Below are positions 10,012 to 46,914 of a stretch of 64,000 nt of DNA, one piece after another. The DNA is taken from positions 248,001 to 312,000 of the forward strand of contig JAJCXN010000055.1 in the NCBI GenBank assembly GCA_029263415.1, read 5' to 3'. The position numbers and the translations under genes were made by a program. Source of the DNA: Acidobacteriota bacterium. GTDB taxonomy: Bacteria > Acidobacteriota > Thermoanaerobaculia > Multivoradales > Multivoraceae. The notes under the pieces are model-generated. The model was not told the DNA's origin. It ran no database searches and worked only from the letters and a program-made list of their open reading frames with translations. How positions within the stretch are numbered: position 1 is the stretch's first letter; each line of letters begins with the position of its first letter.

Positions 10012-10136
10012 AGCAGAAGCATACAGATCGCTGAGCCAAGTGCGTAGATGTGCGGCGGGCGCCGTTCATCGATCCGGGGGCAGATAGCATGGGAGCTGTA
10101 TGTCACGACCCAATAGATACCGAGGGCGGTCTTAAG

Positions 10137-13100
10137 ATGAGCCGGCGCTGGTTCGTGTCAGTTAGCGGTCCCGAGAGGCTTGACGCTGCGCTTGAGTTCT
10201 TGCGCGGCGCAGGGCCTTGTGTGGTGATTGCACCGCGCAAGTCGGTGGCCGATGAGCTGGTCTGGAACCTAGCCGAGGCGGGCCAGCCGACCAGTGGAGT
10301 GGTGCGCACGACGCCCGCGGTACTGGCTGGGGAGTTCGCGTCGATCGCGCTGGCAGCCGAAGGGCGTGCGACTGTAGGCTCCACCGCCGTTGGTGCGGTG
10401 CTCACTCAGGCCGTCGATGCCGCCCTGAGCAACGACGAACTCCGATGGTTCCGTGATGTTGCACGGCTACCGGGGTTTGCGCCCTCGCTGCAACGGACCC
10501 TCGAGGAGTTGCGCTTCGCAGGCGTTTCTGCCGCGGCACTGCGCGCGTGCGCGCAGAATTCCGGTGAAGTGTCGCCTCCTGTTGAGACCGCTCGAGTGGT
10601 TGAACGCGCCCACTTACGACTACTGAGTGGAGGGCTGCAGACGTCGGGTGGCTCCGCAGCTCAAGTCGAGGCGTCGGATGAGGGATCGGTGTTGCTCGAA
10701 CTGGCGGCCCTGGCCGGGCGCTATGAGAACGAGTTGCAACGCTGGTCTTTGGCGGACCGGGCTTGGATCTTTGCTCGCGCGATCGACCTTGTGACGGCTG
10801 CAGGTGAGGTTGGGTCAGACCGGACGGTCCTGGCCGCCCGTCTTCTCGATCCCGTACAAGGCATCGCACAACTATGGCTCGATGTACCTCTTCACTCGGT
10901 CTTGGAGCAGGAGTTTTTTGCGGCGACTTCGGGCCTAGCTAGCGATTTGACTGTGATCACACCAACGCGTGATCGAGCAACTTGGAACGCTCTTGAGCTG
11001 TCGATGGGCAGCGGAAAGGAGCTTGGCGGCGGGGCGAAGAACTCGCGATTGAAACGCGTGCAACGGTCGGTGTTCGCTTCCGATGTGGCGGGCAATGATG
11101 CGGAGGCCGGGACCGCTGGCGATGAATCCTTCGCGTTCTTCTCCTCGGCAGGAGAGGGTCAAGAGGCTGTTGAGATCGCTCGCAGAGTAGGGGCACTTGC
11201 TGAAGAAGGCATCTCTTTCGATGAGGTTGGAGTGTTCCTGCGGCAAACGGGTTCCTATGTACCGCTGATCGAGGATGCATTTACGCGAGCGCAGATTCCA
11301 GCGTACTTCGCTCGCGGGAGTTCGCGACCGGATCCGAGTGGGCGTGCATTTCTTGCTCTGTTGGCGTGCGCGGATGAAGGACTGTCGGCAACTCGGTTCG
11401 CGGAGTTTCTTTCCTTCGACCAGTTGCCGCTACTGGATTCACAGCCGTTCGTGTCCGAGGAACAAGGTTCGACTCGATCCGCCTTGGTGGTGCCGTGGGT
11501 TGCGCCGGATGGTGACCAGCTGGTGATCAAGTCGATGGTCGAGGCAGGTGAAGCTGCGGCCGACGTCGCGGTCGCCGAGGTGTTCGAGCGTGCGCCGAGC
11601 AGGCACGTCGACCCCGCGACTGCGAAGACAACCGAGCCTGTGCAAAACGAGCCGGAGCAAGACGGTGTGATGCAAGACGGTGCACGTCGAGCTCCACCGG
11701 CGGCTTGGGAGCGGCTGATTGTCGATGCAGCGGTTGTGGGCGGCGCGGATCGATGGCGCCGGCGCCTGCGAGGGCTCGCTGCTGAGCTCGAGCGACGGGC
11801 AAGAGAAGTCGGCGAGGACGAGCCTCGCTCGCGGTCTCTCAAGTCGACCCGCAAGCGGCTCCAGGATCTCGAAGCGGTCGCGCTGCCCCTGGTCGAACGC
11901 TTAGCATCGCTGCCGGTGGGAGCCAGTTGGGCTGATTGGCTGCAATCCTTGGAACAGTTGGCGGTGGCTGCGCTGCGGTTTCCGCGGTCGGTGCTCGCGG
12001 TGTTGGCCGAACTTCGCCCGATGGCCGCGGTTGGCGACGTCTCGCTCACTCAAGTACAGAAGGTGCTGTCGGAGCCACTGCGCTCGATTGAAGCGGAGCC
12101 GCCCAAGCGACGCGAAGGACGGGTCTTTGTTGGTGGCATCGAACAGGCGCGAGGTCGATCGTTCCGCGTGGTGTTCGTGCCTGGATTGGCAGAGGGCGTG
12201 TTCCCGGCCCGTGCCTCCGAAGATCCGTTGCTACTCGACGTCGCCCGGCTCGACATCGACAGACAGCTCAGTGGCCAACAGGACCGAGCCTCGGGCGGCG
12301 ATGCGGCGGGGCACGCGGGCGCGAATGTGCAGGTGGACTTGCCGAGACTGCCGGTCCAGAGCACTCGGTTTCATCGTGAACGCCTGTTGTTGCGTCTAGC
12401 AATTGGAGCTGCATCGGATCGACTCATCGTTTCGTATCCGCGCATCGACGTCATGTTGGGGCGTGCGCGGGTACCGTCGTTTTATGCCCTCGATCTATTG
12501 CGTGCGGCTGAGGGGCGCATCCCGACCTTGAACGAACTCGCCCGCCGTGCGGCGACTGGAGGAGGCCCAGGAGCGCGTTGGCCTGCGCCAGAACGCGCAG
12601 AAGACGCGATCGACGACGCCGAATTCGACCTCGCTCTGCTACACCCGTCGCAGCAAGAGCCCGGTGCTGCACGCTTTCTGTTGTTCGCCAACGAGCACCT
12701 CAAACGGTCGCTTCACGCTCGAGCGCGGCGTTGGCGCAGCCCGTTCACTTGGGCCGACGGTCTGGTGATCGATGATGCCGAGTCTTCACCGAGCGAATCG
12801 GAACAGACGTCCTCAAGTGCGAAGGCGCTGGCGCTGCTCGAGAATCAACGACCACATCAGCGCAGCTTCTCCCCCACGGCGTTGCAGCATTTCTCGGCGT
12901 GTCCCTATCGCTTCTTGCTACAGGCGATTCACCGTCTGCGACCGAAGGAAGATCGTGCAGGCTTTGAGCAGTTGGACCCGTTGACCCGCGGCTCGTTGTT
13001 TCATGATGTTCAGTTTCTGCTCTTTCAGCGGCTCAGAACCGAGTCGCTGCTGCCTGTCACCAGCAGGAATCTGAAGCAAGTTCTCGATCTCGGTGACGTG

Positions 13101-13925
13101 GTACTGGACACGCAGGCGGCACAAACGTACGAGGAAATGGCGCCGGCGATCGAACGCATCTGGCTCGCTGAGATCGAGAGCCTGCGCAACGATTTGCGCG
13201 GTTGGCTACGCCAAGTTAGCGAGCAACCGCAGTGGCGGCCTGCGCTAGCGGAAATGGCGTTTGGGCTCGCCCCGTCGGATGACCGTGATGCTGCCAGTGT
13301 GGAAGAACCGGTTGAGGTCAGTGGGTTTCGGTTGCGCGGTTCGATCGACCTAGTTGAGGTCTCGGATCGGCATCGTAGGATCAGGGTCACCGATCACAAG
13401 ACCGGCCGAGCCGCTGCCAAATCGTCGATGGTGGTCGACGGGGGCAAGGTGCTCCAGCCAGTACTCTACGGTTTGGTTGCTGAACAGTTGCTCCAGGACG
13501 GCCAGCTCGATGAGGTGACGCTTGGCTTGCCAACGGCTCTTTCAGAGGAGGCGAGCGATCAAAGCGACGCGAATCCAACGAGCCAGCTTCCCGAGGCGTT
13601 CCGCGAGTCGAGTGGCCTTCCCAGCGCGGAAACCGCTGCCGCCGCGATCACGGTGGAGTCGGGCCGACTCTTCTACTGCACGGTCCGCGGTGGCTATGCC
13701 GACGTGGAGGTTCCCTTGCGCCGGGACGCAAGGCAGAGTGCTGAACAATTGTTTGAGACGGTCGACGCCCATATTCGAGAAGGCTTTCTGCCGGCCGCAC
13801 CGGCTGAGGGTGCCTGTCGCTTCTGCGACTACCGCATCGTCTGCGGCCCCTACGAGGAACGACGGATCCAACGCAAACAAACGGACCGGCTGGATCCGCT
13901 GACGCGGCTGCGGAGGCTCCGATGA
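10137..13925 (+). CDS. addB: AddB-type exonuclease subunit with Fe-S nuclease domain
   Basis: A 1262-residue subunit of an AddAB double-strand-break repair complex. The frame is open from 10050, but ATG 10137 starts the conserved MSRRWFVSVSGPERLDAALEF. The N-terminal half is an inactivated UvrD-like helicase (APRKSVADELVWN replaces a Walker A). The C-terminal PD-(D/E)xK nuclease has Asp1071, Asp1086 and Lys1088 (SIDLVEV, TDHKTG). Cys922 (FSACPYRF) with Cys1227, Cys1230 and Cys1236 (CRFCDYRIVC) match the 4Fe-4S staple of AddB nucleases. An acidic low-complexity insertion lies near nt 11590-11700. The stop overlaps the addA start (ATGA). Confidence 0.9.
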   Translation: MSRRWFVSVSGPERLDAALEFLRGAGPCVVIAPRKSVADELVWNLAEAGQPTSGVVRTTPAVLAGEFASIALAAEGRATVGSTAVGAVLTQAVDAALSNDELRWFRDVARLPGFAPSLQRTLEELRFAGVSAAALRACAQNSGEVSPPVETARVVERAHLRLLSGGLQTSGGSAAQVEASDEGSVLLELAALAGRYENELQRWSLADRAWIFARAIDLVTAAGEVGSDRTVLAARLLDPVQGIAQLWLDVPLHSVLEQEFFAATSGLASDLTVITPTRDRATWNALELSMGSGKELGGGAKNSRLKRVQRSVFASDVAGNDAEAGTAGDESFAFFSSAGEGQEAVEIARRVGALAEEGISFDEVGVFLRQTGSYVPLIEDAFTRAQIPAYFARGSSRPDPSGRAFLALLACADEGLSATRFAEFLSFDQLPLLDSQPFVSEEQGSTRSALVVPWVAPDGDQLVIKSMVEAGEAAADVAVAEVFERAPSRHVDPATAKTTEPVQNEPEQDGVMQDGARRAPPAAWERLIVDAAVVGGADRWRRRLRGLAAELERRAREVGEDEPRSRSLKSTRKRLQDLEAVALPLVERLASLPVGASWADWLQSLEQLAVAALRFPRSVLAVLAELRPMAAVGDVSLTQVQKVLSEPLRSIEAEPPKRREGRVFVGGIEQARGRSFRVVFVPGLAEGVFPARASEDPLLLDVARLDIDRQLSGQQDRASGGDAAGHAGANVQVDLPRLPVQSTRFHRERLLLRLAIGAASDRLIVSYPRIDVMLGRARVPSFYALDLLRAAEGRIPTLNELARRAATGGGPGARWPAPERAEDAIDDAEFDLALLHPSQQEPGAARFLLFANEHLKRSLHARARRWRSPFTWADGLVIDDAESSPSESEQTSSSAKALALLENQRPHQRSFSPTALQHFSACPYRFLLQAIHRLRPKEDRAGFEQLDPLTRGSLFHDVQFLLFQRLRTESLLPVTSRNLKQVLDLGDVVLDTQAAQTYEEMAPAIERIWLAEIESLRNDLRGWLRQVSEQPQWRPALAEMAFGLAPSDDRDAASVEEPVEVSGFRLRGSIDLVEVSDRHRRIRVTDHKTGRAAAKSSMVVDGGKVLQPVLYGLVAEQLLQDGQLDEVTLGLPTALSEEASDQSDANPTSQLPEAFRESSGLPSAETAAAAITVESGRLFYCTVRGGYADVEVPLRRDARQSAEQLFETVDAHIREGFLPAAPAEGACRFCDYRIVCGPYEERRIQRKQTDRLDPLTRLRRLR

Positions 13926-16900
13926 AGCTGGTTGATCAAGGCTGGGCGTTGGATCGGGCGACGCGAGACCGTATTCAAACGGATCTCGGGACCTCGATGC
14001 TGGTCGAGGCGGCAGCTGGCACCGGCAAGACCACTCAACTCATCGGTCGACTCGTGGCGGTGATCACCACCGGCGCAACCACAGTCGACAAGATCGTTGC
14101 GGTGACGTTCACCCGCAAGGCTGCCGGCGAACTGAAGCTGCGGTTGCGCGAGGCACTTGAGGAAGCGCGCGCGGACACCAACGCTGTTGTCCGCGAGCGG
14201 GTCGAAGCGGCGATCGCGCACCTTGAAGAAACCCGCATCGGCACCATCCATTCGTTCTGCGCCGACCTCTTGCGTCAGCGACCCGTCGAAGCGGGAGTGG
14301 ACCCAGATTTCGCTGAAGTTGCAGACGACGAAGGGCCGCGGCTCTTTGCTCGCGCGTTTGATCGTTGGATTCAGGATCAGTTCGAAGTGATGCCAGAAGG
14401 GTTGCGGCGGGCCCTGAGTCGACTTGCTCTGGAGAGCGGCTATCAAGGGGGCCAGCGCTCCACTCCGCTCGAGCGCCTGCGCGATGCTGCGTGGAAGCTC
14501 GCGGAATGGCGCGATTACCCGGCGGCGTGGCAGCGACCGCCCTTCGACCGCGTTCCGTTGATCGACCGCTTAGTCGACTTGGTCGCACGCCTCGCGAGCC
14601 ATGCGCGACGTGCAAACCACAAGGGAGATCGCCTACGCAATAGTCTCGAGCCGGTGGTGATCCTGGATACCTGGATTCGTCGAGCGGGGTTTGACTTGCT
14701 GCCGAAGCCTGAAACTCCCTCGACCTCGCCCTTGCCTGATGGAGTGTTGCGCTTCCCGTCAACTCAAGCAGAGCAGGTCGAAACTGAAGATCCCTTTGCG
14801 CGAGTGCCCGAAGGAGGGCAGCACTGGACGGGCAAGCTCGAGACCCGCGACTACGATGCGCTCGAAGCGAGACTTTTAGAACTGCGAGTGCAACTGCGCC
14901 GTCCTCAGAACAAGCACAAGGGGCGCGGCAAGTTTGCAGAGGCCTTGCCACGTGAACAGGTGATCGAAGAGCGGGATCTATTCCTCGAGTGTCTGGATCA
15001 TTTTCAGCGGGTTGCCAACGCCGACCTTGCTGCGTTGCTGCAACGTGAGTTGCGGGGTGTGTTGCCTGAGTACGAGCGTACAAAACACTCCGAAGGGCGC
15101 CTGGACTTCTCGGACCTCCTGCTGCTCACACGCCTTCTGCTGGTGACCTCAGCGGACGTACGCAACACCTTGCAAGAGCAGATCAGCCATCTCTTTATCG
15201 ATGAGTTTCAGGACACGGATCCCGTTCAAGCCGAGGTGCTGCTCTTGCTTGCGGCCGATGATCCTTCGTGCGTCGACTGGCGCGAAGTGCGCCCAGCGCC
15301 GGGCAAGTTGTTTGTGGTTGGCGACCCCAAACAGTCGATTTACCGCTTCAGGCGTGCCGATGTTCGCCTCTACGAGGGCATCAAAGAACGGCTGCGGGAA
15401 CGGGGTACCGCGATCCTAGAACTCGGCCGTAGCTTCCGTGCGAACTCAGGCATCCAACGCTTTGTCAACGCAGCGTTCGCTCCGCTGATGGACGCCGACG
15501 CCGCAGCGGGGAGGCCGAGCTATCTCGCGCTTGGCGAGTTCCGCCAGGCCCCAGAGGGACAACCAGCTGTTGTTTCCCTACCAGTACCGTCGCCCTACAA
15601 GTGGAAGTACTTGTCGCAACGAGCGATCGAGGAGAGCCAACCGAAGGCGGTGGCCGCATATTGCGATTGGTTGATCAACAAGAGTGGTTTCAAGGTCGAG
15701 CGGGATGGCGATTGGGTGCCGGTGACCGAAGCCGATATTTGCATTCTCTTCCGCCGCTATCTGTCATGGGGGCGAGATGTCACCAGGCCCTACACCCAAG
15801 CACTCGAAGATCGCGGTATCACTCACCTCTTGATTGGTGCGCGCACCTTTCATCAACGCGAGGAGATCGAGACCCTGCGCGCGGCGTTGCTTGCGATCGA
15901 GCATCCCGACGAGGAGCTAGTTTGCTTCGCAACGCTGCGGGGTTCTCTGTTCTCGTTCTCAGACGAGCTACTGTTGCGCTACCGTGCAGCGGTCGGTGGG
16001 TTCTCAGCGTTCGCGTGGCAGGCGTTCCACAAGCGAAATGGCCAGAAGCGAAGCGGCAAGCAGCCGAGTGACAAGAAACCGACTGGATCCGAGTTCGAGA
16101 ACCCGCGGGTCAACGGTGAGCTGGAGCCAGTGGGTGAGGTACTGGACCTCTTGGTGAAGTTGCATCGACTGCGCAATCGCCGAGCGGTGGTAGAAACTGT
16201 ACAGGAGCTGTTGGACACGACGCGGGCCCGCGCAGGCTTTGCGCTCCGGCCTGCGGGACACCAAGTTCTGGCCAACGTGGAACGCATCTGCGAGTTGGCG
16301 CGCGCGTATGAGATGACGGGTGGCCGTTCCTTTCGCGGCTTTGTCGAGCGGCTCGAGGCGCAGGCAGCTCGGCCCACCTCGGCCGAGGCGCCGGTGGTTG
16401 AAGATGGTGCGGAGGGCGTGCGCATCATGACTGTTCATGCTGCCAAGGGCCTCGAGTTTCGGGTGGTGATTCTTGCGGATATGACCGCCAATATCGCGAT
16501 CCGTGAGCCGGACGCCGCCGTCGATGCTGACACCGGACTGTGCGCAACCAAGTTGTTGGGCTGTGCTCCGATCGATCTGATTCAGCGCATGGATGTGGAG
16601 AAGGCGCGCGACCACGCCGAGGGGGTGCGCGTCGCCTACGTCGCAGCGACCCGTGCGCGTGACCTGCTGGTGGTACCTGCGGTGGGCGATGAGGCACGAC
16701 CTGGTTGGATCGAACCGCTGAACTCGGCTCTCTATCCGGAGAATCCAAGAGATTCTGAACCCTCGCCTGGGTGCCCAGAGTTTGGCGAGCGCTCGGTATT
16801 GGAAAGGCCGATGGAACTCGAATCGCCGGGCGAAGCAGCGGGCTTGATGGGATCAGAGGATCCCTCAGTGAAGCCCGGCCTGCATCGCTTCGAGGGCAGT

Positions 16901-17890
16901 CATGGACGCTACTCAGTGACCTGGTGGGATCCAGCTGTGCTCCACCTTGATGTGAAGCGTGAAGTTGGGCTTGCTCGCGAAGGGCTGTTGAGTCCCAAGG
17001 TCTTGCAGCAGCTCGATGGCGCGGGCTCCACCGCCGCGTCGGCTCCTGCGGTCGAGCGCAATCTCGAGCGCTACCGCTCGTGGCAGATCAAGCGAGCATC
17101 CATCCTCGCCAGTGGAAGTGCCCCCTCACGCGAGGTTGAGGCGGTCACTGCGATCGATGCTGAGCCACCGGGTGGGATCAGGACGGTTGCGTTGCAGACG
17201 GTCAGGCGTGTCGACAGCTGCCGCCCCAGTGGCCTACGCTTTGGCGAGCTCGTGCATAGCGTTCTACAATTGGTGGATCTCCGGCGCTCGCAAGTTGAGA
17301 TCATTGATCAAGCGCGCGAATTGGCATTGATGACCGCTCGGATCATCGGAGCCAGCGATCGCGAACGAGACGCAGCTGTGGAAGCTGTGGGCGAACTGGC
17401 AGGATCGTCACTCGGCGCAGAACTGCGGGCGGCGACCGGCCTGTGGCGCGAGTTTCCGCTTTCGGCGAAGGTAACAATCCAAAGCGAGGATGGCATTGCC
17501 AGAGAGGTTGTGGTGGACGCGGTGATAGACCTCATGTTCACCAACGGAAGCGAGATCGTGGTGGTGGACTTCAAGACCGACGCCGCCTTGCTCGCGAGCG
17601 TAGGCACGGCCGGCTCGGCACACGCGATCAAGGTCCCGGGCAGTTCACAGACTGGCAGCCAACAGACCGGTATTCAAAGAACCGGCGATCAGCAGACGGA
17701 CAATGAGCAAACGGGCAGCCCCATCGCGGACGGCCCAGGCTCAAACAACGCCCCGATGACGAAGTACTGCCGGCAACTATCGTGGTACGCCGAGTTGCTC
17801 GAATCGTCGGGCAATCTCGCATCGCTCCTCAGCACACTTGAGGCGCCGCCCGAAGCGAATGATCTCGAGTTGCGGCTAGTGCAAATCTAG
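13922..17890 (+). CDS. addA: AddA/RecB-like helicase-nuclease
   Basis: A 1322-residue SF1 helicase that unwinds and degrades double-strand breaks with AddB. Walker A is AAAGTGKT (30-37); motif II is LFIDEFQDTDPVQ; VVGDPKQSIYRFRRAD is the conserved Gln/Arg motif; HAAKGLEFRVVILADM and VAYVAATRARDLLVV are motifs V and VI. The C-terminal nuclease has Asp1216 and Lys1218 in VVVDFKTDA and the later YCRQLSWYAELL, so both AddA and AddB look nuclease-competent. Between the two nuclease motifs sits a five-residue tandem repeat (QTGSQ-like, nt 17648-17719). Translation is coupled to addB by a 4-base overlap. Confidence 0.93.
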   Translation: MKLVDQGWALDRATRDRIQTDLGTSMLVEAAAGTGKTTQLIGRLVAVITTGATTVDKIVAVTFTRKAAGELKLRLREALEEARADTNAVVRERVEAAIAHLEETRIGTIHSFCADLLRQRPVEAGVDPDFAEVADDEGPRLFARAFDRWIQDQFEVMPEGLRRALSRLALESGYQGGQRSTPLERLRDAAWKLAEWRDYPAAWQRPPFDRVPLIDRLVDLVARLASHARRANHKGDRLRNSLEPVVILDTWIRRAGFDLLPKPETPSTSPLPDGVLRFPSTQAEQVETEDPFARVPEGGQHWTGKLETRDYDALEARLLELRVQLRRPQNKHKGRGKFAEALPREQVIEERDLFLECLDHFQRVANADLAALLQRELRGVLPEYERTKHSEGRLDFSDLLLLTRLLLVTSADVRNTLQEQISHLFIDEFQDTDPVQAEVLLLLAADDPSCVDWREVRPAPGKLFVVGDPKQSIYRFRRADVRLYEGIKERLRERGTAILELGRSFRANSGIQRFVNAAFAPLMDADAAAGRPSYLALGEFRQAPEGQPAVVSLPVPSPYKWKYLSQRAIEESQPKAVAAYCDWLINKSGFKVERDGDWVPVTEADICILFRRYLSWGRDVTRPYTQALEDRGITHLLIGARTFHQREEIETLRAALLAIEHPDEELVCFATLRGSLFSFSDELLLRYRAAVGGFSAFAWQAFHKRNGQKRSGKQPSDKKPTGSEFENPRVNGELEPVGEVLDLLVKLHRLRNRRAVVETVQELLDTTRARAGFALRPAGHQVLANVERICELARAYEMTGGRSFRGFVERLEAQAARPTSAEAPVVEDGAEGVRIMTVHAAKGLEFRVVILADMTANIAIREPDAAVDADTGLCATKLLGCAPIDLIQRMDVEKARDHAEGVRVAYVAATRARDLLVVPAVGDEARPGWIEPLNSALYPENPRDSEPSPGCPEFGERSVLERPMELESPGEAAGLMGSEDPSVKPGLHRFEGSHGRYSVTWWDPAVLHLDVKREVGLAREGLLSPKVLQQLDGAGSTAASAPAVERNLERYRSWQIKRASILASGSAPSREVEAVTAIDAEPPGGIRTVALQTVRRVDSCRPSGLRFGELVHSVLQLVDLRRSQVEIIDQARELALMTARIIGASDRERDAAVEAVGELAGSSLGAELRAATGLWREFPLSAKVTIQSEDGIAREVVVDAVIDLMFTNGSEIVVVDFKTDAALLASVGTAGSAHAIKVPGSSQTGSQQTGIQRTGDQQTDNEQTGSPIADGPGSNNAPMTKYCRQLSWYAELLESSGNLASLLSTLEAPPEANDLELRLVQI
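17648..17719 (+). repeat. 15-nt in-frame tandem repeat inside the AddA nuclease domain
   Basis: Five copies of a pentapeptide (QTGSQ, QTGIQ, RTGDQ, QTDNE, then QTGS) encoded by a 15-nt unit, lying between the DFKTD and YCRQLSWY nuclease motifs. Other AddA proteins have a short loop here, so this is a likely recent expansion that adds a flexible linker. Confidence 0.8.
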
Positions 17891-17916: not shown

Positions 17917-19563
17917 CTAGTCCGCAGCCTTCCACTGCCAAAGAATGCTTAGCGCAAACAGGAACGGGATGCCCATTACAAACGGTGAGATCACCATCGT
18001 CGCCGGTGGGTGGCCGAGCACCACGTCGCCGATTGACATGAAGGCGTAGGTCAGCAGTGGTAGCAGCAGGAGTGGCCGCGAGAGTTTGCCGAGCGGTTGC
18101 CAGTCGATCCGCTTCTCGATGGTCCGATAGATCATCATTACCACGAACACTGTGCCCACCCAGCCGATGTAGTTGTGGAACGGAATGCCGAAGTACTGGC
18201 CGCCATCTTCCCAGACCCAGGCTTTGTCGAAACCGACCATGTAGGGGTCAAGGGTGAGATCCCAGGCGGTCATGATCATGGCGCTCAAGAATGAGACAAA
18301 AGCAGTGATCCCGATCGGGACGTCGGCGCCACTCGGCCGAGTTGGTTTGCCGAAACTGATGAAGTTCGCGATCAAGTAGCTTGGGTACATCATCAGGAAC
18401 CAGGTGCACGGGATCACCCACGGCACCTCACCGAAGAATTTGTAGCCCAGGACATCGGTGTAGTAGTACTTCCCGAAGATCAGCCCTGACTTGGTGCCCA
18501 ACAGTTCCGAGAGGAGTGACAGCGGCGCCGCCACAGCTACGAAGGCGCCAGCGCGCTTCCATCCGAGAACGTAGATGGCATGGACCAAGCTGAAGGCAGC
18601 GAAAATCGGCACCAGCTGCGTGAACGGCACTCTGATGTTGCGCAGCGCCGGCGACAACTGGAACGCGAATAGAACAAGGCCCAGTGCTATCCCGATCCCG
18701 AGCACCACTCTCGCGACGTTGCTGCGGGTGGTGGGTGGCTGGGGATCGGTGTCGATGGGGGCACCGATGAACAGTCGAGCGCAAGCTGCAAGCACTGCGA
18801 TTCCCATCGCAAAGGGTGCGATCAGTCGGGTTGCAATGGGGTCACCGATGAAGAGATCACCGATCATGTTGATGGCGTAGATCCCGACCGGCAGCGCTGC
18901 CACCCACTTGCCGGTTTTGCCCATGGGTTCGAGGCGGATGTAGCGCTCCGCGATGCGGTAAGCGAGAATGATCAGGAAGCTGACCTGCACCCAACCGTAG
19001 TAGTTGGCGAAGGGCACGCCGAAGTAAGGACCGCCATCGAGCCACTTCCAGGCGCCGACAACGCCAGACATGTAGGGGTCGAGTGTCAGGTCCCAGGCGG
19101 TCATCACCACTGCAGTCAAAGCCGAGAGCCAGAGGATCTGCCCCCAACCGCTGCGCACCAGAGCAGGCGTTCTGGTCACCACTAAATTGGCGATGACATA
19201 GGCCGGATAGAGCATCAGGAACCAGGTCAACGGAATGACGTATGGGACCTCGCCTAGCTTGGGGCCGAGGACGTCAGTGTAGAGGTAGTCACCAACGTTG
19301 CCCGAACTGATCGAGTGCGATTCGGCAATCCAAGAACCGACGCTGGTGATCGAGAAGAAGGCCAGGGTGCGTCGCCAGCCCAGCATGTGGGCACCATGAA
19401 TGAGGCCGAAGGCAGTGAACAGGAGCGCTGAGACAATCAGCGCTGGCTGTTCGCCCGGCGATCCTGCGGTGATCAGCCGATGTGCCACGAACAGCGCGAA
19501 GGCGATCAGGCTGCCAATTTCAATAGTGCGGCTGAGTTTGCTGGACGAGGATGAATCGGGCAT
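17917..19563 (-). CDS. Tandem-duplicated carotenoid biosynthesis membrane protein (CruF/DUF422-like)
   Basis: A 548-residue polytopic membrane protein made of two homologous halves. Half one (about 15-270) has EVPYVIPLTWFLMLYP and MTAWDLTLDPYM (154-165) followed by GGPYFGVPFANYYGWV. Half two (about 285-545) repeats these as EVPWVIPCTWFLMMYP, MTAWDLTLDPYM and GGQYFGIPFHNYIGWV. Each half resembles the Carot_synth/CruF family (carotenoid 1,2-hydratase and bisanhydrobacterioruberin hydratase), whose usual members have one such unit of about 250-300 residues. The conserved Trp-Asp and Asp-Pro residues are present in both halves. No other carotenoid genes are nearby, so the pathway role is inference. 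Confidence 0.75.
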   Translation of the reverse strand: MPDSSSSSKLSRTIEIGSLIAFALFVAHRLITAGSPGEQPALIVSALLFTAFGLIHGAHMLGWRRTLAFFSITSVGSWIAESHSISSGNVGDYLYTDVLGPKLGEVPYVIPLTWFLMLYPAYVIANLVVTRTPALVRSGWGQILWLSALTAVVMTAWDLTLDPYMSGVVGAWKWLDGGPYFGVPFANYYGWVQVSFLIILAYRIAERYIRLEPMGKTGKWVAALPVGIYAINMIGDLFIGDPIATRLIAPFAMGIAVLAACARLFIGAPIDTDPQPPTTRSNVARVVLGIGIALGLVLFAFQLSPALRNIRVPFTQLVPIFAAFSLVHAIYVLGWKRAGAFVAVAAPLSLLSELLGTKSGLIFGKYYYTDVLGYKFFGEVPWVIPCTWFLMMYPSYLIANFISFGKPTRPSGADVPIGITAFVSFLSAMIMTAWDLTLDPYMVGFDKAWVWEDGGQYFGIPFHNYIGWVGTVFVVMMIYRTIEKRIDWQPLGKLSRPLLLLPLLTYAFMSIGDVVLGHPPATMVISPFVMGIPFLFALSILWQWKAAD

Positions 19564-21003: not shown

Positions 21004-21918
21004 CTAGCTACCAGCTTGATTCAAGGCTTCGATAAAGGCACGGATGCGGGCTGCATTGGCGCCGAGATCACTCTGGCCATCGCGGGACTTAGAGCGGATG
21101 TCCACCATCGAGTGGGCGGCGTCGGCTCCATCTGGTCCTTGAATACGGATGACAATGTCGTCTACGAATCGGAAAGTGCCGGAGGTTGCGGTGGCCTCGA
21201 TGGTGGCTTCAACGGGCACAGGAGTGGGTTCAAGCTCGGGCTCTGTGCCGGCCTCGGCCTCAGGGTCTACGTTCGCCTCCGCATCTAGTTTCGCCTCAGT
21301 GTCTACGATCGCCTCAGTGTCTAGGGCATCGTTGATCGACGCGGAAGCTTCGGGACCGGTTGGTGCAGGCAGGTTGCTCGCGATCACGGTCCAGCCGAGG
21401 CTCTCAGCGACTTGCTTCGCTTGGGCCAGGACATCTGCCGGCGAGCGCATGAGGTGCATCGAACTGAGATCAGCGTAGGCCTCGCGGTGGAGTTCTACTG
21501 TGTTCTCTGGCCCATGAGGGAAGGCTAGATCGACTCCCTCGTTGGCGGGATCCTGGGCAAGCTCAACAAAAACTGGTGGATTACCGAGATTGGTGGTGAT
21601 GTCGTGGATTGGCGGGACACCCGCTCCACCACGACCCAGGTTGCCAACGAAAAGCAGCACGAGCGCGCCCGCAATGGTGGCGAACATCGCAACACGAGCG
21701 CCTGTGTTGCCAGTGGATTTCCGCGTGGAGAAAAGAGCAACGAGTCCAACCAAGACGGTCGCAAGGGCAAACGGGAGCGCTAGTGCAAACAGCATGAAGC
21801 CGCGCAGGGGAGCGATCAAACCGAAATTTGCAAGTGCTGGCCCGAGCACCAAAGCGGTGAGAGTGGCGAAGCACAGAATGCGGGCGAAACGGGCTGAGAA
21901 GGCAGGCTTGGTGGTCAT
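21004..21918 (-). CDS. DUF1499 membrane protein with repeat insertion
   Basis: A 304-residue protein. Three hydrophobic segments lie in the first ~105 residues, followed by a DUF1499 domain: PPIHDITTNLGNPPVF, then after a long gap FRFVDDIVIRI and the diagnostic VDIRSKSRDGQSDLGANAAR. DUF1499 proteins have no established function. The domain is split by an acidic low-complexity insert of about 45 residues, including four copies of a hexapeptide (DTEAIV, DTEAKL, DAEANV, DPEAEA), just where the family has a short loop. The small membrane protein downstream may be co-transcribed. Confidence 0.8.
   Translation of the reverse strand: MTTKPAFSARFARILCFATLTALVLGPALANFGLIAPLRGFMLFALALPFALATVLVGLVALFSTRKSTGNTGARVAMFATIAGALVLLFVGNLGRGGAGVPPIHDITTNLGNPPVFVELAQDPANEGVDLAFPHGPENTVELHREAYADLSSMHLMRSPADVLAQAKQVAESLGWTVIASNLPAPTGPEASASINDALDTEAIVDTEAKLDAEANVDPEAEAGTEPELEPTPVPVEATIEATATSGTFRFVDDIVIRIQGPDGADAAHSMVDIRSKSRDGQSDLGANAARIRAFIEALNQAGS
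21250..21321 (-). repeat. 18-nt in-frame tandem repeat in the DUF1499 gene
   Basis: Four copies of an 18-nt unit encode DTEAIV, DTEAKL, DAEANV and DPEAEA. The unit boundaries fall on codons, so copy-number changes would stay in frame. Confidence 0.75.
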
Positions 21919-22089
21919 TCGAACTCCGGTGGTCTGAAGGCTGAGACGCGCTGGTCGGTGCTTGAGCAGATCCGTTCTTGGTTGGTCGTCGGGTTTCGTC
22001 TAAGTGTGAAAGCTTATCCGGTCCCTCTCTTCCAAGAAGACCGTAATCGGACGAGCGTTGCAGCGCAGGCTGTTAGCCTTTGCCGCACG

Positions 22090-22974
22090 ATGATGGACTC
22101 CTTTGGAACCTCGGTTCTGCTCTTGATAGTGGGCGTTGTGGCCGGAACGCTGAACGTTCTTGCGGGCGGGGGTTCGCTCTTGAGCCTGCCAGTGCTGATC
22201 TTCATTGGGCTGCCTTCGGTTGAAGCGAACGGCACCAATCGGGTCGCGATCCTGATGCAGAACGTGGTCGCCACGCTCCGTTTTCAACAACACGGAGTGG
22301 TGCCGTGGGGCATCGCTGGCTGGGCGGCGATTCCCGCGGTGTTTGGTTCCCTGCTGGGTGCGCAGCTGGCGTTGCTGATGGACGACTCCCAGTTCCAGCG
22401 GATACTGGCTTGGATCATGGTCGCTGTCACCGTGTGGAGCATGGTGCAGAACCGTCGTCAACGACGGTCGAAGGGCGGGCACTCGACCCGTGCCTCAGCT
22501 CTCGCTGACCCGCCTACCCTGGTCGATCCAGCAGGCCCGGTCGACCCAACTGTTCCGGTCGATCCAGCTGTTCCAGTCGATCGAGCTGAATCGGCCGCGG
22601 AGCAGGGTTCTGGCCGGAGCAGCAGTCGCTGGCTGCTGGCGGCTGGCTTCTTCTGCGTCGGCGCCTACGGCGGTTTCGTTCAGGCGGGGGTGGGATTTCT
22701 GATTCTGGCAGCGCTGTCGATGGCGGGCCTGGACTTGGTGCGTGGAAACGCGGTCAAAGTGGTCGCAGTCCTGTGCTTCACGGTGATCGCTCTGATTGTG
22801 TTCGCGCGCAACGGACAGGTGCAGTGGGCTCTTGGTGCGGTGCTCGGTGTCGGTAACTCGATAGGGGCGCTCTTGGGAGTTCGCTTGACGGTGCTCAAGG
22901 GCCATGTCTGGATTGAGCGTTTTGTGACGGTCACGGTGTTGGCCTTTGCTGTGGCTCTTTGGGTGCGTTCTTGA
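22090..22974 (+). CDS. TSUP family anion transporter (TauE/SafE-like)
   Basis: About 294 residues if the start is the ATG at 22090 (or 22093); the frame is open from 21958 but the extra residues lack membrane character and run across the intergenic region. The N-terminal motif VVAGTLNVLAGGGSLLSLP, then GLPSVEANGTNRVA and the second-half copy YGGFVQAGVGFLILAALS with GNAVKV, are typical of the sulfite exporter TauE/SafE family, which has two homologous halves. Family members move sulfite, sulfonates or organic acids; the substrate here is unknown. The cytoplasmic loop between halves carries four hexapeptide repeats (VDPxVP). Confidence 0.85.
   Translation: MMDSFGTSVLLLIVGVVAGTLNVLAGGGSLLSLPVLIFIGLPSVEANGTNRVAILMQNVVATLRFQQHGVVPWGIAGWAAIPAVFGSLLGAQLALLMDDSQFQRILAWIMVAVTVWSMVQNRRQRRSKGGHSTRASALADPPTLVDPAGPVDPTVPVDPAVPVDRAESAAEQGSGRSSSRWLLAAGFFCVGAYGGFVQAGVGFLILAALSMAGLDLVRGNAVKVVAVLCFTVIALIVFARNGQVQWALGAVLGVGNSIGALLGVRLTVLKGHVWIERFVTVTVLAFAVALWVRS
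22522..22593 (+). repeat. 18-nt in-frame tandem repeat in the TSUP transporter loop
   Basis: Four 18-nt units encode VDPAGP, VDPTVP, VDPAVP and VDRAES between the two membrane halves of the transporter. The unit GTCGAYCCAxCTGTTCCG is nearly perfect in the middle copies. Confidence 0.75.
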
Positions 22975-25693: not shown

Positions 25694-27406
25694 ATGTTGA
25701 ACCGAACACCTAGCAAGCCGCACCTGGTTGCAGCAGTGTGCGCCACACTCTTGGGGCTGGGTTTCGCCTCCAGCTCCACCTCCATCTCGGCTGCGGCCCA
25801 TGCCCAAGGCACAGAGCAGGCGCCTGCTGGTTTGCCGGCCACCTGGAAGGGCAGCGCCGGGGTGGTGGTGTCGGTGGTGGACGAGCGAGGTGGAGCTCTG
25901 CCGGACGCAGAAGTGTCGCTGCGCTTTGCAGAAGGGGCGGAGCGCTTGGTTCTGCGCACCGACGAGAATGGTCGCGCCGAGGTCACGGGTATTGCCGGCG
26001 GCGAATGGCAGATCGACATCCAGCGTGAAGGGTTCATGCTGTTTAACGCCTATGTGCTGCTCGAGTCGGGCAAGAAGCCAAAGGTCGCGTTCTCGTCGCG
26101 GCAGCGCACAGGGAGCTATTGGGAACCACTCAAAGCGGTGTTCTTGCCGCCCGGTGTGCAACTCGGCCGCGGTGTCGCCAGCGGTCGCGAGTCGGTGAAG
26201 CAGGCTCAAGCCCGAGCCGAGAAGGCCACCAAGGATTCTTTCCGTCAACAGCGCCGAGCGGAACGAGCTGCGAACAAGGGACGACTGGCGCGCGTAGTGC
26301 CGAGTGAACCGGTGGAGCCGACCATCACCGACTTAGTCGAGCGACCGGAACCGCGACCAGAACCAGCAGTCGCGGTGGCGGTGGCAGACACAGCAGACAC
26401 GGCAGACATAGAACAGACAGAACAGACAGAACAGATAGAACAGACAGAACAGAGTGAGCAAACGGAGCCGACAGAACAGATCGCAGACACAGCCCAGACA
26501 GATCTGCCAGAACAGACGGCCACGCAACCTGCAGTTCGAGAAGCATCAGGGTCGACCAGTCCCGCCGTGCCGCCGACGCAATTCCCTTCCCCGACCGAAG
26601 AGATCACGACTTCCACAGCATCCCGGCGACCGGAGCGGGAACCAACATTAACTGCTCAGGCACAGAAACCGGCGCCGTCCAAGACGATCGCTGAACCAAC
26701 TCAGGCTGTCGCAGCTGCACCCGCGGTCTTCCCGGCGACTCCCCCTCCCGCGGCAGCCGAGCCAGAAGTGTTGCCTGCAGCGATCCCCGTTGTGCTTGAT
26801 GTGCCCTTGAGTCCTGCGCCCAACGTGCTGCGTAACCCCAACCTCCGGCCGGCAGGGGCCTGTCCTGAATGCGGTCCGGGCGAGTATTCGGTCGCGGCTC
26901 GTGGCCAGGCCGAGAAGTTCGAGCGAGGCGATACCTGTTCTTTGGCGCGGTTGGCTGCGGTGAGCGCCCTTACGCCGCGTCTCAACGCGGCCCTTACTGA
27001 TGGCCTAGGTGTCTTCGCTGGTTCGCTGGCTGAAAGCAATGGCAACGATGTGTTGCGTTTGGTACCGCCGTCGCTGCGCACCGATATCAGAGTGGCCCTT
27101 AGCGATCCGTCGAACTCGTGCCAAGTCGTTGGCGTGGTTCTGCCTGCTGGCTCCCGCTATGTTGGGTTCCGGTATCAGGCCGGTGAACGATCAGTGATGG
27201 CCGAATGCCCGCAGGGTGACGCCGGTACAGAGCAAGTGTGCCAGGTTGGTGACGCGCGCTGGCTAGGCCCGCCCTCGCTGGTGCGGACCGACGGTGTCAC
27301 GATGGTGCTTGGCGTGTTCGAGAATCGATCTCGCCGCAGTACGCGACTGCCGCAGTTGACAGTCTATTTCCAGCCGCAGCGCGGTTGGCTGCCTCCTTCC
27401 CGGTAA
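25694..27406 (+). CDS. Secreted repeat-rich protein with carboxypeptidase regulatory-like domain
   Basis: A 570-residue exported protein. A signal peptide (VAAVCATLLGLGFASSSTSI) ends around residue 38. Residues ~50-130 form a carboxypeptidase regulatory-like/Ig-like fold (VVVSVVDERGGALPDAEVSL, EVTGIAGGEWQIDIQREGF). A long disordered middle (~150-385) is rich in E, Q, T, P and A and includes eight EQT-type tripeptides. The C-terminal ~175 residues form a cysteine-containing domain (GACPECGPGEYSVAARGQAE, LSDPSNSCQVVGVVLP) that I do not recognise; at least six cysteines could pair as disulfides. It ends 4 bases before the mannosyltransferase frame opens. Surface or periplasmic adhesion is a guess. 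Confidence 0.6.
   Translation: MLNRTPSKPHLVAAVCATLLGLGFASSSTSISAAAHAQGTEQAPAGLPATWKGSAGVVVSVVDERGGALPDAEVSLRFAEGAERLVLRTDENGRAEVTGIAGGEWQIDIQREGFMLFNAYVLLESGKKPKVAFSSRQRTGSYWEPLKAVFLPPGVQLGRGVASGRESVKQAQARAEKATKDSFRQQRRAERAANKGRLARVVPSEPVEPTITDLVERPEPRPEPAVAVAVADTADTADIEQTEQTEQIEQTEQSEQTEPTEQIADTAQTDLPEQTATQPAVREASGSTSPAVPPTQFPSPTEEITTSTASRRPEREPTLTAQAQKPAPSKTIAEPTQAVAAAPAVFPATPPPAAAEPEVLPAAIPVVLDVPLSPAPNVLRNPNLRPAGACPECGPGEYSVAARGQAEKFERGDTCSLARLAAVSALTPRLNAALTDGLGVFAGSLAESNGNDVLRLVPPSLRTDIRVALSDPSNSCQVVGVVLPAGSRYVGFRYQAGERSVMAECPQGDAGTEQVCQVGDARWLGPPSLVRTDGVTMVLGVFENRSRRSTRLPQLTVYFQPQRGWLPPSR
26411..26482 (+). repeat. 9-nt tandem repeat (EQT tripeptides)
   Basis: Eight in-frame copies of a 9-nt unit (GAACAGACA-like) encode EQT, EQT, EQI, EQT, EQS, EQT, EPT and EQI. 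On the DNA level ACAGA is repeated almost without interruption, so slippage is likely. Confidence 0.85.
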
Positions 27407-28652: not shown

Positions 28653-28734
28653 GGCCTTCAGCTACGGCCCTCCCCTAAAGGGCCCTCGGTTACGGCCCTC
28701 CCCCAAAGGGCCCTCAGTGATGGCCCTCCCTTAG
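28653..28734. repeat. Three tandem 28-bp hairpin repeats between convergent genes
   Basis: Units at 28653-28680, 28681-28708 and 28709-28734 share GGCCYTCxGxTAYGGCCCTCCC; a diverged partial unit lies at 28628-28652. Across each junction GGCCCT pairs with AGGGCC around a 7-base loop. The array fills the gap between the mannosyltransferase and GST genes, and the GST stop codon is inside the last unit. It may act as a bidirectional transcription barrier or mRNA end stabiliser; no T tract is present. Confidence 0.75.
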
Positions 28735-29491: not shown

Positions 29492-31351
29492 TTAGGGTTC
29501 GAGCGGGCAACTGGCGAAGGCTTCGACATCCTGAACCGGCAAAAACGCCCGATCGCTACTTTGATAGATGCGTGAGGCGCCGGTCTCGGTGTCCACTACC
29601 TTGATTTCGACGTCGACATCGGTCAGGCCGCCGGAGAACACCCAGAACCGCTGGTTGATGCCACAGCCGTTCAGGACTTTGATCACGATCTCGACGTTGG
29701 CCTCATTGAAGAACCAAAAATAGCCCGTGTCTTCTGTCAGAGCGATCGCCTGGGCCTGGGCATCGGTCTGATCGACGGTGCTGAAATCGACGTTGACGCG
29801 GAAGCGCTCAGTGGCCAAGCAAAGGGAGGTTGCGTTCTCCACGCAAACGCTGGGTGCGTCAGTCGGTCCGTCAATGCCCTCGGTGAGCTCCGGTGGCGGT
29901 GGCGGTGGGGGTGGCGGCGGCGGGTCGTCCGGGTCGTCCGGGTCCATCGGATCGGTGTCTTGAGGGTTGTTGATCGCTCTCCTGATTACCACGCCGTCTG
30001 CATCACTGACCAGCAGGCTGGGGATTTGCACCGAGGTATTGTCGCCGCCCATGGTCAGGATGCCGGAGGTGTTGTTGATCACCAGGACGCCGATAGCACC
30101 CGCGTCCTGGGCGCTGAGAACCTTGCTGACAAAAGTGCAGTCGCCGCGGTCGACAACCGCAATGTTGCCGCTGACCGCGTGTCGGTTGACCACTGGGCCA
30201 CAGAGCAGGGACGGCGAAGCGCTTGCGTCTCGCGCCAACACAAGCTTGCCGGTGGGCATGACGTTGCTGACGCGCGGGCCGAATTGGGCAACTCCCGCGT
30301 CGAAGGCGCCCGCTACGGTCGACGGTGGCTGGATGACAAAGACCGCGGCGGGATCGAGCAGGGCTTGTGCTGCTTGGTTGGTGCGCGAGCCAGTCCACAC
30401 GAGGCGACCGCTGCGTGTTGCCGATGCTGCTACCTGCGCCGGAGTTAGCTCTGCCCAGTCTTTGCGCAGCACCGTGTCGCGCAGGAAGTGGCTGTAGATG
30501 TCTGGCCGGCCATTGAACTGCTGACCGGTGGTGGCGTTGATGAAGGTGGCAAAGCCAATGCCGTGACCGATCTCATGCAAAGCCACATTGATGAAGTGGA
30601 TCTGGCCGGAAGCCTCCTCGCCGGTTCCATAGAAGTAGGTCCGTCCAGTGCCCAAGCAGCTGTTGTCGATCTGGCTATTGAAGGTGATGCGCAGGTCGCC
30701 AGCGCTCGGATTCGGGTTGTTCGCGAGGGACAGGTTCTGCCCACTGAGTGCCTCCGCGAGCGCGCCGGGGTACCAGCTCCCGGGCTCGGCTGCGGTGGGA
30801 ACGGTGAAAACGAAACTGGCCAAGGCCTGGGCAAGCGTGGCGCCGTCAGTGCTGCTGCAGGTGAGTGATTGAAATCGCGCGTCGATATTGATCGTCACCG
30901 AACTTCTTAGCGTGCTACCGAACACATTGGCGGCTTGCTGGAGAGCTGTGCGTCGCTGAGCGCCGAGCGTCGGATGATTGAAACCCTGACCTGCCGGGTC
31001 GGTGAAGTTGAGCGAGAAGACTGATTGGCCTGTGGACCAGCCGATGTCGCGCATGGCGGCTGCGGTCACGTCGAGTCCGAGGGGTGGCAGGTCGCTGCTG
31101 ATCCCTGGCTCCATCAAGAGGCTGGGAAACGCGCTGCTGTCGAAATGGCTGATCGAAGATCCCGGTTCGACCGGGTTGGGTGCGTAGATGAGGAGTCGGC
31201 CGTTGGCGTCGGTGCCGGAGAAACGCTCCGGGTCCACGGTGAGCGATCCGGCGGTGGGTGTCTGTGCAATTGCGGCTTGGCCGGACACGATGAGTAGGCA
31301 GGTCGCGAGTGCAACCAGACCCGTGAGATTGCGTTGAGTATCGGTGATCAC
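29492..31351 (-). CDS. Secreted PA-domain zinc metalloprotease-like protein, domain order permuted
   Basis: A 619-residue exported protein. After the signal peptide (to about residue 30) comes a segment LLIYAPNPVEPGSSISHFD, LLMEPGISSDLP and AAAMRDIGW (about 53-106) that usually closes such proteases. The catalytic domain follows, with HEIGHGIGF (His259, Glu260, His263), then a PA domain (about 375-445, IAVVDRGDCTFVSKVLSAQD), a D/P-rich linker with a run of prolines, and a C-terminal DTGYFWFF beta-sandwich module (about 515-619). The family is presumed proteolytic. Its start overlaps the preceding gene's stop by 4 bases, so it is the second gene of a coupled pair. Confidence 0.8.
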   Translation of the reverse strand: MITDTQRNLTGLVALATCLLIVSGQAAIAQTPTAGSLTVDPERFSGTDANGRLLIYAPNPVEPGSSISHFDSSAFPSLLMEPGISSDLPPLGLDVTAAAMRDIGWSTGQSVFSLNFTDPAGQGFNHPTLGAQRRTALQQAANVFGSTLRSSVTINIDARFQSLTCSSTDGATLAQALASFVFTVPTAAEPGSWYPGALAEALSGQNLSLANNPNPSAGDLRITFNSQIDNSCLGTGRTYFYGTGEEASGQIHFINVALHEIGHGIGFATFINATTGQQFNGRPDIYSHFLRDTVLRKDWAELTPAQVAASATRSGRLVWTGSRTNQAAQALLDPAAVFVIQPPSTVAGAFDAGVAQFGPRVSNVMPTGKLVLARDASASPSLLCGPVVNRHAVSGNIAVVDRGDCTFVSKVLSAQDAGAIGVLVINNTSGILTMGGDNTSVQIPSLLVSDADGVVIRRAINNPQDTDPMDPDDPDDPPPPPPPPPPPELTEGIDGPTDAPSVCVENATSLCLATERFRVNVDFSTVDQTDAQAQAIALTEDTGYFWFFNEANVEIVIKVLNGCGINQRFWVFSGGLTDVDVEIKVVDTETGASRIYQSSDRAFLPVQDVEAFASCPLEP

Positions 31352-46190: not shown

Positions 46191-46914
46191 CTACCACAGG
46201 GTTGTGTCGCCAGACTCGAAGCCGTCCGCAAAGAGCACGGAAGGGTATGAACTCAGGTCGATCTTGAACAACTCCGCGCCTACGTCTTTGCGGAAGGCGC
46301 TGACATAGAGCAAGTCTCCAACGACTTCCGTGTCGAGCACTGTCGTCCCTGCCGGGCCCGGTTCGATGCTTGGCAGCCTCTCGAGCAGGCCTTCTGCTCC
46401 TCGTGCAATGTAGAGTTCAGTGCCTTCTCCCGGAGAATTGACCCCAGCAAAAATCAGGTCTTGTCCACGCACAGAAGCTGCTCCGACGCTTGGGAAGTCG
46501 TCGGCGATTACCGTTGTCCCCGAAGTTGTGCCGTCGGAGAACCAGAGGCTACCGTAGCTTGAGAAGTACTCCGGATAACGACGGGTCCGAAGACTTAGGG
46601 CCGAGAGCGATGTCTTTGAGCAGGGCCGTTCCAAGGGCAGTGCCATCCGTGGACCAGAGTTCGCTACCGAACTCGCTACTTTCGCCCACGAACAGGGTGA
46701 TTGACCCCAGTTGGACGAACTGGTACGGAGAGAGCGGGTCATCTTGACTGCCGGCAGCAATATCCTTGACCAACTCGGCGGGCTGAGCCTTTGCAATGGA
46801 CGCAGGGGCGAGTAGAGCGCAGAGCAACACCATGATCGACAGGGCATGAGTTCTGAGGAGGATCGACTTCAACAGTGACGAGGGTTGGCTGATGTCTTGC
46901 TGGAAGCTGGGCAT
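46191..46914 (-). pseudogene. Frameshifted ELWxxDGT-repeat secreted protein with DGFESGD tail
   Basis: One gene split by a frameshift near 46570-46585. The upstream frame (from ATG 46914) gives a signal peptide (LSIMVLLCALLAPASIAKAQ) and an ELWxxDGT repeat (GSELWSTDGTALGTALLKDI, then GPKSSDPS). The downstream frame gives YPEYFSSYGSLWFSDGTTSGT, GTELYIARG and the end VLFADGFESGDTTLW. The joined product would be about 240 residues with two ELWxxDGT-type repeats, short for the family, so it may be both truncated and broken. A sequencing error is the alternative. The adjoining gap 46915-47231 (317 bp) shows no gene or structure. Confidence 0.8.

Follow-up and report, generated by a model that had tools for sequence, protein, structure and literature searches.

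Tandem repeats in four proteins of one window

Several otherwise ordinary genes in a 64,000-nucleotide stretch of an Acidobacteriota genome of 6.89 Mb (the source genome; the stretch, hereafter the window, is G000:C55:248001-312000) carry short, codon-aligned tandem repeats, and this raises the question of whether such repeats are more frequent in this genome than in other GC-rich genomes and, if they are, whether mutation or selection on the proteins accounts for them. Our analysis confirmed the repeats that a preliminary description, made by reading this DNA, had reported in four proteins (Table 1). The four-unit, 18-nt repeats of the DUF1499 protein (LDTEAI/VDTEAK/LDAEAN/VDPEA) and of the TSUP transporter (VDPAGP/VDPTVP/VDPAVP/VDRAES; an alternative GTG start gives a longer ORF for this gene, from 21958) are recovered by TRF, as is the 9-nt repeat of the 25.7-kb protein (IEQTEQTEQIEQTEQ), which is called both with period 9 (26384-26480; 10.6 copies, 76% match, score 71) and with period 18 (26410-26517; 6.0 copies, score 90). 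The 15-nt repeat of AddA (TGSQQ/TGIQR/TGDQQ/TDNEQ), a protein with UvrD helicase and PD-(D/E)XK domains, has diverged too far for TRF to report it even at score 30; a direct scan in 75-base windows finds 38 matches out of 60 at lag 15, and at all four other lags tried (9, 12, 18 and 21) the self-match is ordinary relative to codon shuffles. None of 500 codon shuffles reached the self-match observed for AddA at lag 15, for DUF1499 and TSUP at lag 18, or for the 25.7-kb protein at lags 9 and 18. In all four proteins the units of 9-18 nt stand head to tail and exceed 6 nt, which makes these repeats intragenic minisatellites, and not the microsatellites that had been proposed. No Pfam repeat family (RTX, pentapeptide and similar) covers any of the four proteins at E values up to 0.001.

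Table 1. Repeat-bearing genes, repeats and inserts in the window (positions are those of the window).
Feature	Coordinates	Strand	Support or remark
TRF match, 15 nt, 2.1 copies	11633-11664		in an AddB-like ORF, not AddA
AddA helicase-nuclease, 1322 aa	13922..17890	+	Pfam UvrD-helicase 2.4e-54, PDDEXK_1 3.4e-5
AddA insert, 54 residues between anchors	17591..17752	+	after VDFKTD of the nuclease domain
AddA degenerate 15-nt tandem repeat	17639..17714	+	lag-15 self-match; codon shuffles
DUF1499 protein, 304 aa	21007..21918	-	Pfam PF07386, E 3.4e-19
DUF1499 insert, 55 residues between anchors	21208..21372	-	absent from relatives examined
DUF1499 18-nt tandem repeat, 3.7 copies	21257..21323	-	TRF score 85
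TSUP / TauE-SafE transporter, 294 aa from ATG	22090..22974	+	Pfam PF01925, E 2.2e-43
TSUP insert, 58 residues between anchors	22462..22635	+	between the halves of the TauE domain
TSUP 18-nt tandem repeat, 3.8 copies	22521..22588	+	TRF score 87
25.7-kb protein, 570 aa	25694..27406	+	sub-threshold CarboxypepD_reg match, its sole Pfam match
25.7-kb protein 9/18-nt tandem repeat	26384..26517	+	TRF scores 71 and 90
Non-coding 28-nt array, 2.8 copies	28653..28730	.	between two ORFs; TRF score 114
PA-domain protein, 6-nt array coding polyproline	29891..29923	-	TRF score 52; counted among the coding arrays of the source genome

In-frame arrays in coding DNA

The source genome is represented here by a non-random sample of 1,126 kb (the window and 54 further stretches; 16% of the genome, 60% GC), which we compared with 400 kb each of genomes G026 and G002, 200 kb each of G004 and G010, 80 named loci and 23 megaplasmid stretches of 50 kb. 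We counted as in-frame arrays those with a period of 6-60 and a TRF score of at least 50, and as multi-copy those with at least 2.7 copies, leaving aside named loci shorter than 9 kb and ORFs of fewer than 150 codons. The GC-matched controls (GC.59-.64) are G026, pRL, pNGR234b and pSymB, three of the four being rhizobial megaplasmids, and from the out-of-family sets with GC of at least.55 we excluded five named loci of the same family (L063, L064, L071, L076 and L079); L071, L076 and L079 have alignments to the family genomes G006 and G004 that add up to 36-46 kb, with identity reaching 88-95%. Genes were finally called with a codon-model caller, the longest-ORF calling of a first census having been abandoned when many G002 arrays fell in ORFs of wrong-frame codon composition; both censuses gave the same direction of result. 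The codon-model caller is itself imperfect, and called, for example, L149:8511-9008(+), where Pfam favours a MacB-like ORF on the opposite strand.

Multi-copy coding arrays number 39 in 954 kb of the source genome (40.9/Mb) and 8 in 793 kb of the GC-matched controls (10.1/Mb), a ratio of 4.05 (p 5.5e-5), and the excess persists with the window removed (35 arrays in 898 kb, p 1.7e-4 against the same controls). It also holds when G026 is the sole control (4 arrays in 328 kb, p 0.013), and relative to the out-of-family GC-rich sets, which have 23 arrays in 1489 kb, the ratio is 2.65 (p 2.1e-4). An array is present in 24 of the 56 20-kb blocks of the source genome and in 7 of the 52 from the GC-matched controls (p 9e-4 by Mann-Whitney test; bootstrap ratio 1.86-11.3), and codon-shuffled genes yielded 0.2 arrays/Mb with the first gene caller. 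The tendency to expand repeats that the preliminary description put forward is thus borne out for multi-copy arrays in this genome, and it is unevenly spread among its relatives: the coding rate of multi-copy arrays is 71.2/Mb in G002 (23 in 323 kb) and 61.3/Mb in G010 (10 in 163 kb, 8 of the 10 lying in one 20-kb stretch, L234, by the first caller), both above the source genome, and 18.4/Mb in G004 (3 in 163 kb), which is not raised. These rates do not establish a family-wide trait.

It had also been asked whether such repeats are no more common than in other GC-rich genomes, as they would be on an ordinary background equally present in any large GC-rich genome. The multi-copy rates of G002 and G010 fit such a background, as does the result for all arrays of at least 1.9 copies, for which the source genome (66 arrays) stands above the GC-matched controls (24 in 793 kb; 2.29-fold, p 2.9e-4), while its excess over the out-of-family GC-rich sets lacks significance (81 in 1489 kb; 1.27-fold, p 0.15). 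The multi-copy arrays, 2.65-fold and 4.05-fold more frequent than in the out-of-family GC-rich and GC-matched sets respectively, speak against it, and we consider a mere GC-rich background improbable.

Host genes and inserts relative to relatives

Many arrays lie in recognizable genes. A Pfam match was found in 33 of the 34 host ORFs scanned (34 of the 36 hosts under the first caller; the hosts outside the scan are L149:2843-6517, L159:1-615 and second-caller additions such as a lysine-rich repeat protein in L186). The hosts include a TrpE-like enzyme, GltD (two arrays), GltB, RimP, a thioredoxin-reductase-like enzyme, uracil-DNA glycosylase, a penicillin-binding protein, two M1-peptidase proteins and a sigma factor, and in G002, where 10 of 21 hosts were scanned, 8 have a Pfam match. 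The Pfam tables, read by eye, place 26 of 35 arrays in the source genome outside matched domains; the other 9 interrupt or sit within one.

Two clusters of arrays were observed. In L154 (3916-10434) the adjoining gltB and gltD genes both bear arrays, gltD two of them, and the 20-kb stretch of L154, with five arrays, is the densest block in the sample of the source genome. In L075, a Polyangiaceae MAG, 18-nt in-frame arrays occur in two adjoining ORFs at an AddA-like locus (9812-15525), with more arrays nearby outside ORFs.

We compared the array sites of four proteins with those of relatives, three proteins being taken from the preliminary description and GltD being chosen for its arrays, so that the four are not a random draw. 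In all four, the array lies inside an insert of some 30-60 extra residues: relatives have 3-11 residues between the same anchors in DUF1499 (21 usable of 28 loci), 9-30 in TSUP (27 of 29), 2-21 in AddA (18 of 23) and 8-18 in GltD (17 of 20), where the source genome has 70. Loci with poor flanks were excluded from these counts (TSUP 2 of 29, DUF1499 7 of 28, GltD 3 of 20, AddA 5 of 23), and the loci are partly non-independent, one gene being covered by both L036 and L061. The array of the uracil-DNA glycosylase is not a clean insert of the source genome, the alignment crossing its position in 10 of 23 matched relatives, some of these 10 with stops inside. A display alignment of the TrpE-like enzyme shows nine relatives, without the tail. 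Reciprocal best matches between the source genome and G002, G004, G010 and G026 (12, 11, 6 and 7 pairs) contain 7 inserts in the source genome and 4 in the relatives, and none of these carries a TRF array; inserts without repeats thus also exist in the source genome.

In a structural model of AddA (overall 60.6, built from 14 sequences), residues 427-476, which are AddA 1226-1275, have pLDDT below 50, while the 10-residue blocks flanking this region score 71-94 before it and 62-89 after it. Since most of the insert is missing from the relatives in the alignment, these values suggest, and do no more than suggest, that it is disordered. A single-sequence model of GltD has a mean of 35.1 and no usable fold; the array site corresponds to chain residues 278-285 of 7mfm, a solved relative of GltD.

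Rickettsia palindromic elements are dispersed elements inserted in frame, and a comparable element could in principle have produced inserts that are clean and lie in unrelated conserved genes. The array units differ in length and also, as the preliminary description had stated in arguing against one mobile element, in sequence, and we give such an insertion very little credence. A mobile element was rejected as a candidate, the 38 arrays searched by BLASTN with 30-nt flanks (E up to 1e-3) having no match at any other site of the 1.13-Mb sample, which is 16% of the genome.

Arrays in non-coding DNA, unit length and reading frame

The preliminary description placed the expansion of repeats within disordered regions of proteins. 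We find a similar pooled excess in non-coding DNA, and for this reason the repeats are not a property of such regions: with at least 2.7 copies, the source genome has 38 non-coding arrays in 173.8 kb and the GC-matched controls 13 in 208.6 kb (ratio 3.51, p 3.1e-5), and against the out-of-family GC-rich sets (34 in 408 kb) the ratio is 2.63 (p 5e-5). This excess rests on the pooled controls, because it is not significant against G026 alone (1.76-fold, p 0.15) or the CH34 megaplasmid alone (1.23-fold, p 0.62); the non-coding density of CH34, near that of the source genome, is a further point in favour of a GC-rich background. G004 and G010 have no multi-copy non-coding arrays in 37 kb each. The source genome has, in and out of genes, more short tandem arrays than most of the genomes compared.

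Two of the 38 non-coding arrays of the source genome lie in the CRISPR locus L157, whose 61-base CRISPR rows exceed the period limit of 60. At L157 13710-16545 (about 33.7-36.5 kb of contig C55) we observe a CRISPR-like array in which a 28-base repeat core recurs in 42 exact copies, spaced by 61 bases in the listed positions; the repeat may resemble those of type I-E.

Units of 13-18 nt make up similar fractions of the coding and non-coding arrays of the source genome (0.51 of 72 and 0.56 of 70; at 2.7 copies or more, 0.42 of 40 and 0.45 of 38). The preference is common to the source genome and G026 (0.70 of 10 coding and 0.78 of 18 non-coding arrays); the corresponding fractions are 0.26 of 103 and 0.43 of 35 in other family members; outside the family, with G026 left aside, they are 0.33 of 81 and 0.35 of 46. 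The pooled excess in coding and non-coding DNA, with shared unit lengths, favours a mutational source. The period is a multiple of three in 66 of 73 coding arrays (codon-model caller) and in 23 of 52 non-ORF arrays (first caller; Fisher p 2.2e-8), and the simplest reading that these data suggest is a single mutational source together with a reading-frame sieve.

The sequence of the coding arrays is not entirely free to drift. Between adjacent coding units of the source genome, pN/pS is 0.54 (0.44-0.70; 62 arrays, first caller, indel-bearing arrays skipped), and difference rates at codon positions 1, 2 and 3 are 0.094, 0.128 and 0.177 (coding arrays, first caller). Because of the low ratio and the high third-position rate, some constraint on the array peptide remains; transition bias, which is uncorrected here, would also lower pN/pS. 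The G002 value of 0.99 (0.56-1.79) is of little meaning, since it is based on the first gene caller. Remaining constraint is what would be expected if the lineage favoured disordered loops and tails, with repeats as the easiest route to flexible linkers, and the placement of most arrays outside matched domains fits selection of this kind as well. It is opposed by the pooled excess and the same unit lengths in non-coding DNA, and by the lack of a sequence common to the units, and we regard selection for linkers as rather unlikely, if somewhat less so than the GC-rich background.

The explanation that we prefer, at a probability of roughly two in three, is that these are minisatellites made by local tandem duplication, which expand more than usual throughout the genome, with reading frame and protein fold acting as a sieve. 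Arrays would arise by replication slippage or short-homology duplication, typically with a unit of 13-18 nt, and would expand more than usual all over the source genome; in genes, frame and fold would filter them, such that units divisible by three survive almost exclusively, mostly in loops, linkers and tails. Direct support comes from the pooled coding and non-coding excess, the common unit lengths, the frame bias, the four inserts that the examined relatives lack and the absence of a sequence common to the arrays. From these data we infer slippage as the mutational step; the excess would reflect raised birth or expansion rather than slower removal, and the inserts are probably tolerated for the most part rather than useful.

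A repeat-unstable genome could also follow from loss of mismatch repair, which would raise slippage genome-wide. Loops of 15 nt are not an expected substrate of mismatch repair, and MutS (948.1 bits) and MutL (471.1 bits) are both predicted above curated cut-offs and without stops, so that we think such a loss very improbable. The mismatch-repair-deficient mutator was rejected as a candidate on the strength of these two genes, whose presence is read from sequence.

A stronger version of expansion by local tandem duplication, which we put forward tentatively and hold to be possible rather than probable, is that, in this lineage, minisatellites with a preferred unit of 13-18 nt undergo unusually frequent expansion and keep adding new disordered loops and tails to core enzymes of metabolism and repair, which would make it a bacterial counterpart to the repeat-rich proteomes of protists. 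If so, the birth of a protein loop could be traced from duplication to decay. New loops and linkers are seldom observed while they form in conserved enzymes of bacteria, and in the source genome tandem duplications are still legible within inserts that are missing from the relatives examined, with the non-coding arrays as a yardstick to part mutation from selection. The cause may be sought by comparing the source genome and G002 with relatives lacking the excess, for example G004.

Relation to known repeat systems

Bacterial intragenic VNTR or minisatellite loci resemble the arrays described here in having tandem in-frame units of more than 6 nt; a VNTR is by definition a locus whose copy number differs among strains, whereas our data comprise one genome per species.

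Protein repeats are born by tandem duplication and diverge under relaxed selection across life, including bacteria and archaea, according to Persi et al. (2016; PMC5120217). The repeats described there share with our arrays adjacent in-frame units, duplication followed by divergence, and relaxed purifying selection between units. Unlike those repeats, the arrays of the source genome show a pooled excess in non-coding DNA too, and their hosts include conserved enzymes whose relatives are without the insert. Low-complexity regions, found in the proteins of many prokaryotes (Ntountoumi et al. 2019; PMC6821194), are likewise short, repetitive and compositionally biased stretches, possibly made by slippage. 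The census in that paper favoured regions conserved across many lineages, whereas our four inserts are absent from the relatives examined (PMC6821194). Among titles and abstract openings, a body of literature in which subscription journals are thinly covered, we recognised none on inserts that carry repeats in the core enzymes of Acidobacteriota. The process belongs to a known kind, and what is unusual is the density of the arrays and their placement in core enzymes.

Other observations in the window

Two ORFs on the reverse strand of the window (32091-35033 and 46191-46847) have near-identical ends, LFADGFESGDT plus a few residues, which is possibly a C-terminal sorting tag. In addition, a gene at 17917-19563, also on the reverse strand, encodes a 548-aa predicted membrane protein whose two halves are alike, apparently through an internal duplication.
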